A stretch of DNA of 64,000 bases from Methanolobus sp. ZRKC5 (lineage in GTDB: Archaea > Halobacteriota > Methanosarcinia > Methanosarcinales > Methanosarcinaceae): assembly GCF_038446525.1 (NCBI RefSeq), contig NZ_CP151792.1:1178001-1242000 (forward strand). Reading direction: 5' to 3'. The position numbers and the translations under genes were made by a program. Positions 37,633 through 44,225 of this stretch are shown in pieces; the stretch's first letter is position 1, and each line of letters begins with the position of its first letter. The notes under the pieces are model-generated. The model was not told where the DNA came from and searched no databases. It saw only the letters and a list, made by a program, of their open reading frames with translations.

Positions 37633-38910
37633 ATGCCAGAGCTAAACATCGACAGAACACTTACATACATCGAAGGAACTCAGCGAGTCCTTGATGAAAA
37701 AAGTACTCTTGAGAAAGTAAACGATAATTCCAAACAGATAGGAGTTACAAGGGTTGCCAGCATCACTGACCTTGACAGGGTCGGCATTCCCGTCATTTCA
37801 ACTATCCGGCCCAGTGCTGCGGAAGGAGCTATATCAGTTTATTCAGGAAAAGGCAACACCGAGAATCAGGCAAGAATATCCGCAATTATGGAGAGTTTTG
37901 AACGATGCCTGGCAGAAAGGAACGGACTAAACAGCGATGTGGCAGAAGATATCAAAGCCCAGCATATCATTGAGAGCTTTGTAACAATGGAAGAAAGCCA
38001 CCGCATAATTGATCCTAAACTCCTGCTTCTGGCTGAAAGCTACAGCCCCCAGGAATTAGTAGAGTGGATAAGCGGATGGGACCTCTTCAAAAACGAGGAG
38101 ACCTTTGTCCCTGCCAATGCAGTGTATCACCCATACGATGCCCCAGGCAGAGCATTGAAGTTATTTAGAAGTAATACTAACGGACTTGCAGCAGGAAACA
38201 CCATAGAGGAAGCAATATTCCATGGCTTGCTGGAAGTCATCGAAAGGGATGCCCTCAGTATAGCAGAGTTCAATCGCAATCCTGGAAAAGAGATAATACT
38301 TACAGAAAGTGATGGTGAAAACTACGAGATCCTACGCAAGTTCACTGACAATGAAGTTGATGTCAAATTATGGGCATTACCCCACGACACAAAAATAACA
38401 ACTGTTGTTGCAGTTACCGACGATATAAGGCTTAAAGATGCAGCACTACTTGTGATGGGTGCAGGAGCACACCTTAATCCGGAAATTGCAGTAAGAAGAG
38501 CATTGACGGAAGCCGCCCAATCAAGAGTTGTGCAAATACACGGTGCCAGAGAGGATACCGAACGTGAGAAGTTTGTCAGGGAAATAGGATATGACAGAAT
38601 AAAACGCATGAACAAATACTGGTATGAGGATGGAGAACAAGCATCCATGCGTGACCTCAGAGACATGTCAAGGAACACACCTGCCGAAAGTATCGACATC
38701 GTACTGGAACAATTGAAGGATATTGCAGAATGCGCCGTAGTTGTAGACATGTCAAGAGAAAGCGTACCGGTCCCAGTTGTCAGAGTGATTATCCCTACTT
38801 TTGAGATGTACACGCTTGACAGAGAGCGTGTGGGCAAAAGGGCAAAGTCAGGAAAAAAGAAGAAACTGGCACCAAAGGACAGACCATGGAGAACCGGACG
38901 CAGAAAATGA
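37633..38910 (+). CDS. ycaO: YcaO protein for McrA thioglycine formation
   Basis: The 425-aa protein is an ATP-dependent YcaO enzyme, with the ATP/Mg motif GNTENQARISAIMESFERC (about residues 77-95) and EEAIFHGLLEVIERDALSI. Beside tfuA, as here, archaeal YcaO turns a glycine of methyl-coenzyme M reductase into thioglycine. The usual proline-rich C-terminus is replaced by a basic tail (DRPWRTGRRK). It overlaps tfuA by 4 nt if tfuA starts at 38907. Confidence 0.9.
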   Translation: MPELNIDRTLTYIEGTQRVLDEKSTLEKVNDNSKQIGVTRVASITDLDRVGIPVISTIRPSAAEGAISVYSGKGNTENQARISAIMESFERCLAERNGLNSDVAEDIKAQHIIESFVTMEESHRIIDPKLLLLAESYSPQELVEWISGWDLFKNEETFVPANAVYHPYDAPGRALKLFRSNTNGLAAGNTIEEAIFHGLLEVIERDALSIAEFNRNPGKEIILTESDGENYEILRKFTDNEVDVKLWALPHDTKITTVVAVTDDIRLKDAALLVMGAGAHLNPEIAVRRALTEAAQSRVVQIHGAREDTEREKFVREIGYDRIKRMNKYWYEDGEQASMRDLRDMSRNTPAESIDIVLEQLKDIAECAVVVDMSRESVPVPVVRVIIPTFEMYTLDRERVGKRAKSGKKKKLAPKDRPWRTGRRK

Positions 38911-39581
38911 GTGACAATACAGGAACTCGCTCCAAAGTCCTTGTATTTGCAGGTACAAGCATAAGTCACGAGGATGCTGCAGAGGTCCTTGATGCAACAT
39001 ACTGGCCACCTATATCCAGAGGTGATATCGAGAAGGCCATGAATCAGGGATACACTGTTATTGGCATCATCGATGGCATTTTTTTTAGCAGAGCAGCTGT
39101 TGGCCACAAAGAAATAATCAGGGCGATAAAAGAAGGAATAATAGTCATTGGTGGCTGCAGTATGGGAGCCCTTCGGGCTTCTGAACTTGACGTACATGGA
39201 ATGACCGGTGTGGGACAAATATATGAATGGTACAGAGACGGAGTCATTGAGGATGATGATGAAGTAGCTGTTGCCACAAATCCTGATACATTCAAACCAG
39301 TATCAAATCCCATGGTAAATATACGGGAAACTTTTGAGGCAGCACTCAAATACAGCATCATCGATAATGATGAATTCAGACGCATAACCAATCTTGCAAA
39401 AAGTACGCATTATACAGAAAGAAGTTACTTTGGGATTACAAAGCAAGCTTCAAGGGAAGGAATTATTCCCGGGGATAAAGCAAGTAAACTCCTCAAATTC
39501 TGCGCAAAGAACGAATGTGATTTAAAAAGAGAAGATGCACTCCTTGTTCTTGAAAAAATAAAACAGGTCTTAACAGAATAG
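38907..39581 (+). CDS. tfuA: TfuA-like partner of YcaO
   Basis: The 224-aa protein has the TfuA core: VLVFAGTSISHEDAAEVL, WPPISRGDIEKA, IIDGIFFSRAAVGHKEI and IGGCSMGALRASEL. TfuA assists YcaO in thioamide formation, probably by presenting sulfur. ATG 38907 overlaps the ycaO stop (ATGA); an in-frame ATG at 38886 is possible. The stop directly abuts the stop of the convergent ABC permease gene. Confidence 0.9.
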   Translation: MSDNTGTRSKVLVFAGTSISHEDAAEVLDATYWPPISRGDIEKAMNQGYTVIGIIDGIFFSRAAVGHKEIIRAIKEGIIVIGGCSMGALRASELDVHGMTGVGQIYEWYRDGVIEDDDEVAVATNPDTFKPVSNPMVNIRETFEAALKYSIIDNDEFRRITNLAKSTHYTERSYFGITKQASREGIIPGDKASKLLKFCAKNECDLKREDALLVLEKIKQVLTE

Positions 39582-40397
39582 TTAAGCTGCTATTTTTGGT
39601 TTTAATCCGTCATACAGGAAGTGCAGTATATAGACGGAAGACATCACCAGGATGATTGTCGCACCTGAAGGAGCGTCGAACAAATAGGATAATGATAATC
39701 CTACGATGCTGAAAATTATACCGAAGAATATTGCAAGGTACATCATCTTCCCAAGATCATTGGTGTAATGTCTACTCAGGGATGCTGGCATAGTAAGCAG
39801 TGCGATGATAAGAATAATACCTACTATCTTGATCAATAGTACGATTGTTAGTGCTATCATACAAAGCAGGAGCAAGTAAAGTTTCTCTACGGACAAGCCT
39901 GCAACTGTTGTAAACTCTTCGTCAAAACAAAGTGCCATGAATTGTTTATAGAAAGCATATACAACAAAGATTATAACAGCATCAAGACCCAGCATAAGGT
40001 AAATATCAGACATTGGTACCGTCAGGATATTACCGAAAAGATAGGTCATGAGATCAGGTGCGTAACCGGGGGTCCAGTATATCAGAATAATACCTATTGC
40101 CATCCCCAGAGACCAGAGTATACCTATAGCAGTATCTTCAGCCACTTTTGAACGTTTGCTCACAAGACCCATGACAAGTGCGGAAAAAAGACTGAAAGGA
40201 ATAAGACCATATAATGGATTGATCCCAAGATAGTATCCAAGACCGATACCACCAAAAGATGCGTGAGTAATACCGCCGCTTATGAAAACGATCTTTTTCA
40301 CAACTACATAGACACCAATTATACCACATGCGACACTCGCCAGAATAGCGGCAAAAATAGCATTCCTCATAAAGTCATACTGGAGTATTTCAAGCAT
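39582..40397 (-). CDS. znuB: Zn/Mn-type ABC transporter permease
   Basis: The 271-aa membrane protein belongs to the ABC-3 permease family, with about eight helices and motifs such as FISGGITHASFGGIGLGYYLG and TMPASLSRHYTNDLGKM. ATG 40397 (MLEILQYDF) is chosen, because an earlier in-frame start would overlap the ATPase gene. With the ATPase and binding protein it forms a metal importer. The ion (zinc, manganese or iron) is not determined by sequence. Confidence 0.88.
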   Translation of the reverse strand: MLEILQYDFMRNAIFAAILASVACGIIGVYVVVKKIVFISGGITHASFGGIGLGYYLGINPLYGLIPFSLFSALVMGLVSKRSKVAEDTAIGILWSLGMAIGIILIYWTPGYAPDLMTYLFGNILTVPMSDIYLMLGLDAVIIFVVYAFYKQFMALCFDEEFTTVAGLSVEKLYLLLLCMIALTIVLLIKIVGIILIIALLTMPASLSRHYTNDLGKMMYLAIFFGIIFSIVGLSLSYLFDAPSGATIILVMSSVYILHFLYDGLKPKIAA

Positions 40398-40408
40398 ACT
40401 GTTCACCC

Positions 40409-41158
40409 TTAGTGCTCTTTCAAAACCCTGTGTGGCACACCGTGAGCAATTAGCTCGATCGGACACTGATATGATACTTCCAGGTCATGCGAACTTAGTT
40501 CCTTAGAGTCATGATAATGGAACTTCCGGTTCAGACAGCCGATCTTATCGACATATACTGAAACAGCGCTGATGTCATGAGTGACCATTATGATGGCAAT
40601 CTCTGATTTGAGCCTGTTGAGAAGTTCATAGAACTCTTTCTGCATCCTGGAATCTATACCCGTGGACGGTTCATCCAGTATTAAGATTTTCGGTTTAGTA
40701 ACAAGTGACCGGGCAATGAAAACCCGCTGTTTCTGACCACCAGAGAGTTCACCGATCTGACGGTCCTTAAATTCAAGCATCCCAACCGTTTCAAGAGCTT
40801 CAGTTGCTGCCTTACGATCTTCTGTATTATATCTCTGAAAAGGACCTTTATGACTGAGACGACCCATGAGTACAACATCAGACACAGTGATTGGGAAATC
40901 AAGGTTTGAGGAATGGTACTGGGGAACATATCCCACATACTTCCTCATCTTTTTAGGATCCCCACCCAGAAGTTTGACTGTGCCCTTATCGGGTTTGATC
41001 AATCCCAGAATTACTTTCAGAAGAGTGCTCTTACCCCCTCCATTTGGGCCTATGATAGCCAAAAAATCCTTGTTCTTAACAGTAAAAGTGACAGATTCAA
41101 GAACATGAACACTATCATAACTTACCCAAACATCCTTAACATCGATCACGTCTTCCAT
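40409..41158 (-). CDS. znuC: Zn/Mn-type ABC transporter ATP-binding protein
   Basis: Walker A GPNGGGKST, signature LSGGQKQR, Walker B ILILDEPSTG and the H-loop MVTHDIS are all present. The protein ends with a longer C-terminal extension containing cysteine and histidine (YQCPIELIAHGVPH). The ATG at 41158 overlaps the binding-protein stop region, showing coupling; a TTG at 41179 is an alternative start. Confidence 0.9.
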   Translation of the reverse strand: MEDVIDVKDVWVSYDSVHVLESVTFTVKNKDFLAIIGPNGGGKSTLLKVILGLIKPDKGTVKLLGGDPKKMRKYVGYVPQYHSSNLDFPITVSDVVLMGRLSHKGPFQRYNTEDRKAATEALETVGMLEFKDRQIGELSGGQKQRVFIARSLVTKPKILILDEPSTGIDSRMQKEFYELLNRLKSEIAIIMVTHDISAVSVYVDKIGCLNRKFHYHDSKELSSHDLEVSYQCPIELIAHGVPHRVLKEH

Positions 41159-41159
41159 T

Positions 41160-42116
41160 TCAAGCCAGTCCTTTTTCAAATGCTTCTGCTACTTTTGCGA
41201 GGTTATCTATATAATCCTTTGCAAGGGGGTCCACTTCCACAACCTCACCGCCTATCTCATTTGCAATAGCAGATGCGCTTACAGTACTAAAACCAGACTG
41301 AACGAAAATGACCTTTATATTTTTCTCATTTGCCTCGTCTATAATGTTCTGCATATCCCTTACACTTGGTTCCTTACCTTCCAGCTCAACAGGAACCTGA
41401 ACCAGACCATAGTGCTCTGCAAAATATCCCCATGCAGGATGATAGACCATAAAACTGCTTCCTTCCTTGCCTGAAAGAGTGGTCTTTATTTGTTCATCCA
41501 ATGCATCGAGCTCTGCAAGATACGCATTCTTATTCTCAAAATAAGTTGCTTCATTTTCAGGATCAAGCTCTACAAGCCCTCCATAGATATTTTCGACCAT
41601 TAACTTAACGTTTGCAGGAGAGGTCCATATATGAGGGTCCATACCGGTTTCTTCACCATGTTCATCCTCAGCATCATGTTCATCCTCAACATCATGTTCA
41701 TCTTCATCCTCATGAGCATGAGCCTCCATTTCACTCATTGTGATACCTTCCGAACAGTCAATTATCACCATTTCAGGATTTAAATCAGCGATCTTACCAA
41801 TCATATTATCTTCAATGGTTATTCCTGAGCCTACCATTGCATACAGTTTTGCATTGCTCAGATCCCTAAGCTGCCCGGGAGTAGGCTCATATGAGTGAGG
41901 ATCTGCCCCTGGAGGAACCATAACAATTACTTTTACACTATCTCCTGCTATCTTTTCCACAAATTCTGCCTGTGGAAGCACACTTACAGCTACAATCATG
42001 CCACCTGAATCCGAATCAGATATCCCAGCGGAAGAATTTTGTTCGTCAACGCATCCTGCAGTCAAAACGATACAAATAGAAAAGAGCATCATCAGAGCTA
42101 TCATATTTTTCTTCAT
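41160..42116 (-). CDS. znuA: Metal-binding lipoprotein, ZnuA/TroA type
   Basis: A lipoprotein signal (LTAGCVDEQ, Cys near residue 22) is followed by the cluster A-I fold: SVLPQAEFVEKIAGD, metal histidine in GADPHSYEPTP, then an acidic, histidine-rich loop (about residues 128-150) and TGMDPHIWTSP, later YHPAWGYFAEHYG. The His/Asp/Glu loop is typical of zinc binders. GGTG sits 7 nt before ATG 42116. The palindromic operator lies 34-59 bp upstream. Confidence 0.92.
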   Translation of the reverse strand: MKKNMIALMMLFSICIVLTAGCVDEQNSSAGISDSDSGGMIVAVSVLPQAEFVEKIAGDSVKVIVMVPPGADPHSYEPTPGQLRDLSNAKLYAMVGSGITIEDNMIGKIADLNPEMVIIDCSEGITMSEMEAHAHEDEDEHDVEDEHDAEDEHGEETGMDPHIWTSPANVKLMVENIYGGLVELDPENEATYFENKNAYLAELDALDEQIKTTLSGKEGSSFMVYHPAWGYFAEHYGLVQVPVELEGKEPSVRDMQNIIDEANEKNIKVIFVQSGFSTVSASAIANEIGGEVVEVDPLAKDYIDNLAKVAEAFEKGLA

Positions 42117-42149
42117 ATTATTACACCACATTAATTTGCACTATAACCA

Positions 42150-42175
42150 AATTGTTTGGTATGCACCCAACAATT
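42150..42175 (-). promoter_or_regulatory. Palindromic operator upstream of the metal ABC operon
   Basis: The arms AATTGTTTGG and CCCAACAATT surround TATGCA; nine of ten arm positions are complementary. The core GGTATGCACCCAA is repeated upstream of the dtxR gene at 42685. It probably binds the DtxR-family regulator encoded between the two sites. Confidence 0.75.
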
Positions 42176-42193
42176 AATCAGTAAAAAATCAAA

Positions 42194-42625
42194 TCAAAGA
42201 TTACCAGCAGAACCGCAAGAAATGTGTTTAATTCGCCCGCAAACACCCACAGTAGGATGACCCATAGCATCACACACCTTATCAATTGCAACTTTAGACA
42301 CTAATGATTCAAACCGAGAAACCTCAGCACATGATTCCTCCGAAGAAAGACCATAATGACTCAACATCAGACTTAGTATGTTGTGTCTGTTAACGAAGAA
42401 CTCAGCATACAACCTGCCTTTTTCAGTCAGCCGCACCCCACGATAAGGAACATGATCAACATAACCCGATTCAGAAAGATCAGTTATAGTCTTCGTAGAT
42501 GTGGATGGATCGACATTAAGCTCTCTAGAAATATCAGTGGTCTTTACAAGATCACCTTTTTTCAATAGGAGTTTCAGATACTCCACTTTTTTAGGAGATA
42601 GTTCCAGCCCTGTGATTTCCTGCAT
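42194..42625 (-). CDS. DtxR/MntR-family metal-dependent regulator
   Basis: The 143-aa protein has an N-terminal winged helix (about residues 15-70, with ISRELNVDPSTSTKTITDLSES) followed by the dimerisation region with metal ligands in FFVNRHNILSLML and CAEVSRFESLVS. There is no SH3-like third domain. It lies between the ABC importer and its own palindromic site, which implies metal-responsive repression of both units. Confidence 0.9.
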   Translation of the reverse strand: MQEITGLELSPKKVEYLKLLLKKGDLVKTTDISRELNVDPSTSTKTITDLSESGYVDHVPYRGVRLTEKGRLYAEFFVNRHNILSLMLSHYGLSSEESCAEVSRFESLVSKVAIDKVCDAMGHPTVGVCGRIKHISCGSAGNL

Positions 42626-42684
42626 GATACATCATAATAAAGAAGGAGTATATATTCTTTTTGAACATAAGTCAACTTTTAGTG

Positions 42685-42710
42685 TTATTTGTGGTATGCA
42701 CCCAATAATT
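42685..42710 (-). promoter_or_regulatory. Second copy of the operator, upstream of the dtxR-like gene
   Basis: The half TATGCA-CCCAATAATT matches the site at 42150 (one arm differs by one base), with the weaker left arm TTATTTGTGG. It is 60-85 bp upstream of the regulator start and suggests autoregulation. Confidence 0.65.
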
Positions 42711-42815: not shown

Positions 42816-44225
42816 ATGCTAATACAACAGATATTCACTGAGAAAATTGCCCATAGTTCTTACATATTGGCAGGAGATAGAACCTGTGCAGTCATCGATC
42901 CAAGAAGAGACATAGAGATATATCTGGAGCTAACAAGAGAACTTGGAGTCAAGATCACGCATATCCTTGAAACTCATTTACATGCCGATTTTATTTCAGG
43001 CCACATAGACCTTGCGCAGAGAACAGGAGCTGCAATTTATGCACCATTGTCAGCAAATTGTGATTTTGAATATGTAGCCCTCTCAGAAGGAGATTCTTTT
43101 TCCATAGAGAACATTAAGCTGGATATTCTGGAGACACCGGGGCACACACCCGAGCATATATCATACGTAGTCACTGACGCTTCAAGAGGTGAAGAACCAG
43201 TTGCACTTTTCTGTGGAGATACCATGTTTGTAGGGGATGTTGGCAGGCCGGATCTCTTCCCGGGAAAAGCAGAGGAACTTGCATCAAAATTGTATGATAC
43301 TTTGCATGAGAAAATCCTTAAATTGCCCGATTTCTGTGAAATATATCCGGCACACGGAGCAGGGTCCCTTTGTGGAAGAGCCATGGCAGCCAAGAGAAGC
43401 AGCACCCTTGGCTACGAAAAGAAATACAACTATGCACTAAATATCAATGAAAGGGCAGACTTTATAAAGTCACTTACAAACAACATGCCTGATGCACCAG
43501 ACCATTTCAGCCGATGCACAAACGTAAATCGTACAGGACCTGAAAGAGTGAAAGAACTTCCTATCCCCGAAGCATTGAACAATGTCCAATTCAGGGAAAA
43601 AATGAAAGATGCAATCATTCTTGACGTACGTAATTTTGAATCCTTTGGCGGACAACATATACCACAAGCTTATAATATAGACAGCAACTCGAATTTTCCC
43701 ACTTACTCTGGATGGTTACTGCCCCCTGAAAAAGACATACTGATAGTTTCAGACAATTATTCACGGGCATTTGATGCATGCACTCATCTGCATAGAGTAG
43801 GACAGGACAGGATAGCAGGCTACCTTGAAGATGGCATGTACGGATGGGTAACGGATGGACTACCTACAAAACATGTCCCACAGATATCTTCTTCTGAACT
43901 GCACAGCCGAATAAATAACGGAAAAAAAATGACCCTGCTGGACGTAAGAGCTGTCTCTGAATATGATGAGTTCCACATTGATGGAGCTGTAAATATACCC
44001 GTACACGAACTGAGAGAGCGGCATGCCGAGATTAACGATGATGCTGAAACCATTCTTATATGCGGCTCAGGTCAAAGATCGAGCATGGGATGTAGCATCC
44101 TTCTACAAAATGAATTCACCAAAGTACAAAATGCCGCAGGCGGCATGACCGGATATGCGACTGCAGGATATGGGCCTGAATGTCCCATGTGTGTTCTTCC
44201 CTGGGCACCTTTCAAGAATAAGTAA
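42816..44225 (+). CDS. MBL-fold persulfide dioxygenase-like / rhodanese fusion
   Basis: The 469-aa protein has an N-terminal metallo-beta-lactamase domain (HLHADFISGH, LETPGHTPEH, FCGDTMFVGDVGRPD, YPAHGAGSLCG), a degenerate rhodanese (about 262-350, without cysteine) and an active-looking rhodanese with ILICGSGQRSS near residue 415. This layout is that of CstB/persulfide dioxygenase-sulfurtransferases that handle polysulfide or persulfide. In an anaerobe the oxygenase role is doubtful; sulfide handling or sulfur transfer is likely. Confidence 0.87.
   Translation: MLIQQIFTEKIAHSSYILAGDRTCAVIDPRRDIEIYLELTRELGVKITHILETHLHADFISGHIDLAQRTGAAIYAPLSANCDFEYVALSEGDSFSIENIKLDILETPGHTPEHISYVVTDASRGEEPVALFCGDTMFVGDVGRPDLFPGKAEELASKLYDTLHEKILKLPDFCEIYPAHGAGSLCGRAMAAKRSSTLGYEKKYNYALNINERADFIKSLTNNMPDAPDHFSRCTNVNRTGPERVKELPIPEALNNVQFREKMKDAIILDVRNFESFGGQHIPQAYNIDSNSNFPTYSGWLLPPEKDILIVSDNYSRAFDACTHLHRVGQDRIAGYLEDGMYGWVTDGLPTKHVPQISSSELHSRINNGKKMTLLDVRAVSEYDEFHIDGAVNIPVHELRERHAEINDDAETILICGSGQRSSMGCSILLQNEFTKVQNAAGGMTGYATAGYGPECPMCVLPWAPFKNK

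Follow-up and report, generated by a model that had tools for sequence, protein, structure and literature searches.

The closest described relative of the system considered here is the MntR/DtxR-like ZntR group of Methanosarcina (MA0022), for which control of znuABC was predicted. Candidate sites were placed before znuABC, ZntR and COG0523 genes, and the COG0523 gene MA4381 of M. acetivorans was predicted to be co-regulated (Haas et al., 2009; PMC2770081). In Bacillus subtilis MntR binds cooperatively to a stretch of 84 bp that holds four 18-bp sites, one dimer to each, which gives a precedent for arrays of sites (preprint, PMC11275975). IdeR binds its operator, TTAGGTTAGSCTAACCTAA, as two dimers on opposite faces of the DNA (PMC8464063). 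The locus described below shares features with each of these systems. With B. subtilis MntR the regulator has in common the fold, the length (142 aa in MntR), the single-domain architecture and the occurrence of sites in arrays, but three of the six metal ligands in the list that we take for MntR are missing and another metal is to be expected; the arms of the MntR operator presumably also differ from those found here, TTTGG-N7-CCAAA. With IdeR and DtxR it shares the winged helix, the dimerisation domain and a Glu at position 106, but it has no SH3-like domain and carries other residues at what we assume to be the positions of C102 and H106. TroR of Treponema denticola is likewise DtxR-like, shares its operon with the genes of an ABC metal importer and is preceded by an 18-bp dyad, but depends on manganese and iron, has an SH3-like domain and has one reported operator (PMC2628430).

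The likeness to ZntR is closer, as both are DtxR-family regulators of Methanosarcina and its relatives that adjoin znuABC or, judged from the sites, are predicted to control it; going by the description of the ZntR group (Haas et al., 2009; PMC2770081) the regulator very probably belongs to it. Among 16 Methanosarcina loci the orthologue shows 61–66% identity and is followed by a site with at most one mismatch in every case, and by a lipoprotein-like znuA start, as read by eye, in 13. The predicted COG0523 co-regulation is a difference: the best three of four matches to CobW-family (PF02492) genes in the genome analysed here have no upstream site within two mismatches, COG0523 being a member of the regulon and not a defining part of the regulator. 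Given the prediction of 2009, the operator and the regulator both belong to a kind already described, and the novelty that the original prediction ascribed to the operator does not hold, as ZntR had been named and sites before znuABC predicted (Haas et al., 2009; PMC2770081). What is added here is the definition of the unit as 17 bp, the phasing of its copies, their occurrence in further orders and the exchange of metal ligands; each of these may have been published before. A 2015 article by Leyn and Rodionov (J Bacteriol 197:451-458) is said to have grouped archaeal DtxR motifs and named FetR, MntR and ZntR regulons, so that the operator may be listed there. No experiment on the regulator was found in the open-licence literature, outside which one could exist.

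In the window, i.e., the whole stretch of 64,000 nucleotides from Methanolobus sp. ZRKC5 that was analysed, the gene of the DtxR-family regulator (42194–42625, minus strand, 143 aa) precedes three importer genes of like orientation, beginning with znuA (41160–42131), which encodes a substrate-binding lipoprotein with a His/Asp/Glu-rich loop (Pfam ZnuA PF01297, E 5.4e-73), and continuing with the gene of a ZnuC-like ABC transporter ATPase (40409–41179, from profile matches) and that of a ZnuB-like ABC-3 family permease (39582–40466; Pfam ABC-3 PF00950, E 3.6e-82). By eye, the true start of znuA is probably 42116, as suggested by a Shine-Dalgarno-like GGTG and the lipoprotein signal, and that of the permease gene probably lies at about 40397. 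The nearest orthologues of the regulator among named records are those of Methanolobus, with 76–89% identity. Adjoining the importer genes on the plus strand (37633–39581) are genes for YcaO (methanogenesis marker 1, McrA-glycine thioamidation) and TfuA.

The 13-mer GGTATGCACCCAA occurs on the plus strand at 42158–42170, ahead of znuA, and at 42693–42705, ahead of the regulator; the 3.05 Mb genome holds no further exact match, and the backwards-read control none. It had been predicted that the motif would be found at 42150–42175 and 42685–42710, bracketing the regulator gene, and this is what is seen; the genome-wide search proposed at the time also came out as anticipated, with two exact 13-mers and one tandem. 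The first copy is included in a putative operator, Z1 (42155–42171, minus strand; GTTGG-GTGCATA-CCAAA), with one mismatch to TTTGG-N7-CCAAA, and the second in a putative operator R1 (42690–42706, minus strand; ATTGG-GTGCATA-CCACA) with two. Two sites had been counted originally, but there are three to four, as a second putative operator before znuA, Z2 (42135–42151, minus strand; TTTGG-TTATAGT-GCAAA, one mismatch), lies 20 bp from Z1 and a weak one recognised by eye, R2 (42660–42676, minus strand; GTTGA-CTTATGT-TCAAA, three mismatches), lies 30 bp from R1. The flanking arms then described are present at Z1 (AATTGTT...AACAATT), whereas the symmetry is far poorer at the second site. The outer arms are partly kept in one close relative (L004), and by eye are not general among relatives, which retain the 17 bp of TTTGG-N7-CCAAA; a 26-bp palindrome as the conserved unit was therefore rejected. 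About 110 bp beyond R1 a divergent gene (42816–44225, plus strand) encodes a metallo-beta-lactamase/rhodanese fusion, which R1 might also influence.

A lone unit with at most one mismatch has no diagnostic value in this genome, where 132 such places stand modestly above the 96 of the control. A single repeated 17-mer, TTTGGAGCAATAGCAAA, accounts for at least 22 of the 132; it is spread over the genome on both strands and resembles a repeated element, e.g., an IS family. After dinucleotide shuffling the best site of the znuA region was equalled in 2 of 100 cases and R1 in 13 of 100. The copies in this genome are degenerate, and none among the matches listed comes within two mismatches of the full palindrome TTTGGTATNATACCAAA. 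A wider regulon was considered for the window's genome and set aside, since its three exact TTTGG-N7-CCAAA places all lie within open reading frames and the best three of its four CobW-family matches lack a site.

The inverted repeat TTTGG-N7-CCAAA was recognised in the flanks of 30 family orthologues, the motif having first been read by eye in family loci L003–L032; ten unlinked znuA genes and the non-family loci lie outside that reading. In the znuA upstream regions of 30 loci, drawn from 30 of the 53 genomes with a znuA match, it is exact in 22 and present with at most one mismatch in all 30, as compared to none exact and at most three of 30 with one mismatch for six control motifs with other arms and the same spacer. 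Across 139 regions flanking the regulator in 70 named archaeal loci (of 140 possible, one falling below the 120-base limit), an exact copy with a spacer of 7 was found in 40, and each other spacer from 0 to 15 gave none or one. With one mismatch the counts were 80 for spacer 7, 43 for spacer 6, 42 for spacer 8 and 0 to 3 for the remainder, and we ascribe the scores of spacers 6 and 8 to T and A tracts, along which an arm can shift by a single base. Nine bacterial loci (L181–L189) were excluded from site and residue counts, three of them being included in alignment A2, and many of the loci come from sister species and are non-independent.

Subtracting 16 Methanomicrobiales loci from the 70 leaves 54 that are here called Methanosarcinaceae-type, three of which are titled Euryarchaeota only. 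Of these 54, 47 have a site with at most one mismatch on one or both sides of the regulator, and seven (L128, four Methanohalophilus and two Methanosalsum loci) have none on either side. Upstream of the regulator it is found in 28 of the 54, and autoregulation, as judged from such sites, is not universal. Ten genomes, seven of g3 and three of g8, have znuA at a distance from the gene of the regulator or on a different contig, and in all ten an exact site precedes it that none of 100 dinucleotide shuffles matched in any case. Among Methanomicrobiales regulators 12 of 16 have an upstream site with at most one mismatch, six of them exact, where the controls reach at most one of 16; L168, L171, L172 and L173 have none upstream, and four of the 16 loci have none on either side. 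The analysis also covered 13 loci belonging to different families within the phylum. Here exact upstream sites were found for f10 regulators in L242, L244 and L246 and one with a single mismatch in L243, and f20 and f12 regulators showed a single-mismatch site in L245, L248 and L253 and a two-mismatch site in L249. None of five f4 loci has a site upstream of the regulator, and all five have a one-mismatch site with a TTTAG arm before a gene that by eye looks like znuA. This conservation across genera and orders strongly supports the part of the original prediction that saw a DtxR-type operator serving a regulator and a metal importer, and the motif is very likely the site where the regulator docks to shut down zinc import.

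Some sites away from the locus deserve mention. Near-perfect sites in g8 genomes (L214, L215, L217, and L218, among the matches listed) seemingly belong to one gene and, as that of L214 lies within coding sequence, were discarded as coding background; a site in a g3 genome (L205) likewise lies within an open frame. In a Methanococcoides-like genome (G058) a lipoprotein-like alpha-acetolactate decarboxylase gene (L099:405–1247, minus strand; PF03306, E 7.5e-83) is divergent from znuA with a second one-mismatch operator between them, and the regulon may thus extend to the decarboxylase. In another genome, of 1.7 Mb, a perfect TTTGGTATAATACCAAA (L199; G010:C9:43858–43874) lies about 1.8 kb from the regulator gene, where the neighbouring genes, by eye, encode an EamA-like transporter on one side and on the other a protein that is rich in His and Cys and looks secreted.

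The regulator scores above the cut-offs for both domains expected of the DtxR family, the winged helix PF01325 (Fe_dep_repress, 50.5 bits, cut-off 26) and the metal-binding and dimerisation domain PF02742 (Fe_dep_repr_C, 45.8 bits, cut-off 27), and together with the fold match and the palindromic sites near metal-transport promoters this places it in that family. The AlphaFold model has a pLDDT of 89.0, with values below 50 only at residues 138–143, and among solved structures it comes nearest to that of the manganese regulator DR2539 (TMq 0.84). As the best named matches in sequence and fold are regulators of manganese and iron, the same operator and regulator could form a pair that senses one of these metals, like MntR, DtxR and IdeR. 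The alignment to B. subtilis MntR is without gaps (MntR 10–115 to profile 14–119), and at the positions of what we take to be the MntR metal ligands, D8, E11, H77, E99, E102 and H103, the window protein has K12, E15, H81, S103, E106 and S107, D8 lying just beyond the aligned stretch and being placed by the same offset. Three of the six are missing. None of the 54 Methanosarcinaceae-type proteins retains D8, E99 or H103 at any position that could be read: position 12 is always Lys or Arg, 103 is never Glu or Cys and 107 never His (one unread), position 15 being variable. The counterparts of H77 and E102 are retained, H81 in 54 of 54 and E106 in all 53 readable proteins, and alongside them stand C99, C118 and C129 (each 53/53), H134 (52/52) and C137 (52/52). 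All 16 Methanomicrobiales proteins have H81, C99, E106, C118, C129 and H134, with exceptions elsewhere in the form of Glu at 103 in two, His at 107 in two and Cys exactly at 137 in only two. In DtxR numbering C99 presumably coincides with the ancillary ligand H98. DtxR and IdeR we take to have C102, E105 and H106 in the primary site and an SH3-like third domain; the window protein has S103, E106 and S107, lacks an SH3-like domain and ends at 143 aa, and the three paralogues examined (L220 in the same genome, L221 and L225) have a C-E-H signature at the metal-site positions.

The conserved Cys and His residues fit zinc, which cysteine-rich metal sites favour over manganese, and from these residues and the importer we infer zinc as the metal. 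ABC importers of the ZnuA-type family are able to carry manganese, and with the retained His and Glu this leaves sensing of manganese or iron as an unlikely reading, against which stand also the NCBIfam MntR equivalog models, of which the best gives 57.5 bits, far under its cut-off of 138. Cobalt or nickel as the metal, at least in some lineages, would be suggested by a Methanoregula locus (L165:5465–7955, plus strand) in which the regulator gene overlaps the first of the genes for CbiQ, an ABC ATPase and CbiM, an ECF-type metal transporter, in place of znuABC, and by similar downstream genes, as seen by eye, in four of the 13 non-family loci (L243, L244, L246, and L253). The metal may differ by lineage, or the ECF transporter may carry zinc, as CbiMQO-type transporters are not proven to be specific for cobalt. 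A znuA-like lipoprotein is however the neighbour in the window, where it has a His-rich loop, and in most listed Methanosarcinaceae-type loci, and in Methanolinea (L174) the same kind of regulator stands beside a ZnuA (Pfam) followed by eye by an ATPase and a permease, so that we regard sensing of cobalt or nickel as decidedly improbable and zinc as the preferred reading.

The sites are arranged in regular steps. When pairs of neighbouring sites with at most one mismatch were measured, matches no more than 3 bases apart having been merged beforehand, 26 of 30 pairs had a spacing of exactly 20 bp (9 pairs), 30 bp (4) or 40 bp (13), and the other four measured 17, 39, 41, and 65 bp. Spacings of 20 and 30 bp are found in Methanolobus, 40 and 20 in Methanosarcina and 30 in Methanimicrococcus, and as species share their spacing within a genus this amounts to a handful of independent cases rather than 26. 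Two units 20 bp apart with up to three mismatches occur in the window's genome at a single place, Z1 with Z2, and in 60 family genomes at 21 places in 18 genomes. The regulator locus accounts for 13 of the 21, from 11 genomes; the other eight are similar in number to the seven of the control. A tandem search with a looser join gave three places, as did its control.

R1 lies 81 bp upstream of the regulator start and in all seven same-genus loci (L003–L009, that of the window included) a site is found at −81 or −82, with 2, 1, 1, 1, 1, 0, and 2 mismatches, respectively; in five of the seven an R2 counterpart, a 17-mer with two mismatches, is at −51. The end of R2 adjoins what is probably the TATA box in the promoter of the regulator gene, AATATATACT (42647–42656, minus strand, sequence by eye), and Z2 carries a TATA-like TTATAG and lies by eye 19–35 bp before the likely znuA start at 42116. 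In sister species the equivalent of Z2 contains TATATT or TTATAATA in L083, L114 and L115 and neither in, e.g., L084, and in Methanococcoides-type loci such as L015 TTTAAATA is found closely 3′ of a site at −47. Z2 over TTATAG and R2 next to the TATA box fit repression by exclusion of TBP/TFB. That another protein binds the motif, or that the regulator activates instead, is highly improbable even though an activator could also occupy the position of R1, some 35 bp ahead of the TATA box, and B. subtilis MntR activates exporters through site arrays (PMC11275975), since the sites accompany znuA and the regulator even when these genes are far apart, Z2 overlaps the TATA-like region, and an importer switched on by its own metal would be perverse.

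Taking the sites with their positions, spacing and conservation together with the gene order, the predicted fold and the replaced ligands, all of which can be read directly, we infer binding by the regulator, zinc as its metal, cooperativity and repression by blocking of TBP/TFB. It is in our judgement probable that a ZntR-type regulator, when loaded with zinc, binds the 17-bp operators, represses znuABC and regulates its own gene. When zinc is plentiful a dimer of the zinc-loaded regulator would bind TTTGG-N7-CCAAA, and at znuA two dimers would be placed 20 bp apart, the nearer site covering the TATA region; as 20 bp is about two helical turns, both would lie on the same face of the DNA. The dimers at znuA would keep TBP/TFB off and the znuABC importer would be shut, and the further site and the weak site beside the TATA box of the regulator would provide autoregulation. 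When zinc drops the dimer would leave the DNA and import would resume. It is conceivable, if somewhat short of probable, that this describes a branch of the DtxR family, present in at least two orders of methanogens, in which the manganese/iron site has been dismantled and replaced by a Cys/His zinc site (H81, C99, E106, C118, C129, and H134, usually with a C-terminal Cys) and in which same-face arrays of 17-bp units in steps of 20, 30, or 40 bp over the TATA box give a steep TBP-blocking switch, in contrast to DtxR and IdeR, whose paired dimers sit on opposite faces.

The methanol methyltransferases MtaA and MtaB of methanogens are zinc-dependent, and archaeal genomes sequenced by 2009 were without recognisable Fur and Zur (Haas et al., 2009; PMC2770081). 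The operator defined here at 17 bp, with its spacing rule and a list of Cys and His residues for mutation, makes a ready test of zinc sensing in methanogens, and it suggests a metal-sensor fold in which the classical ligands have been swapped for others.
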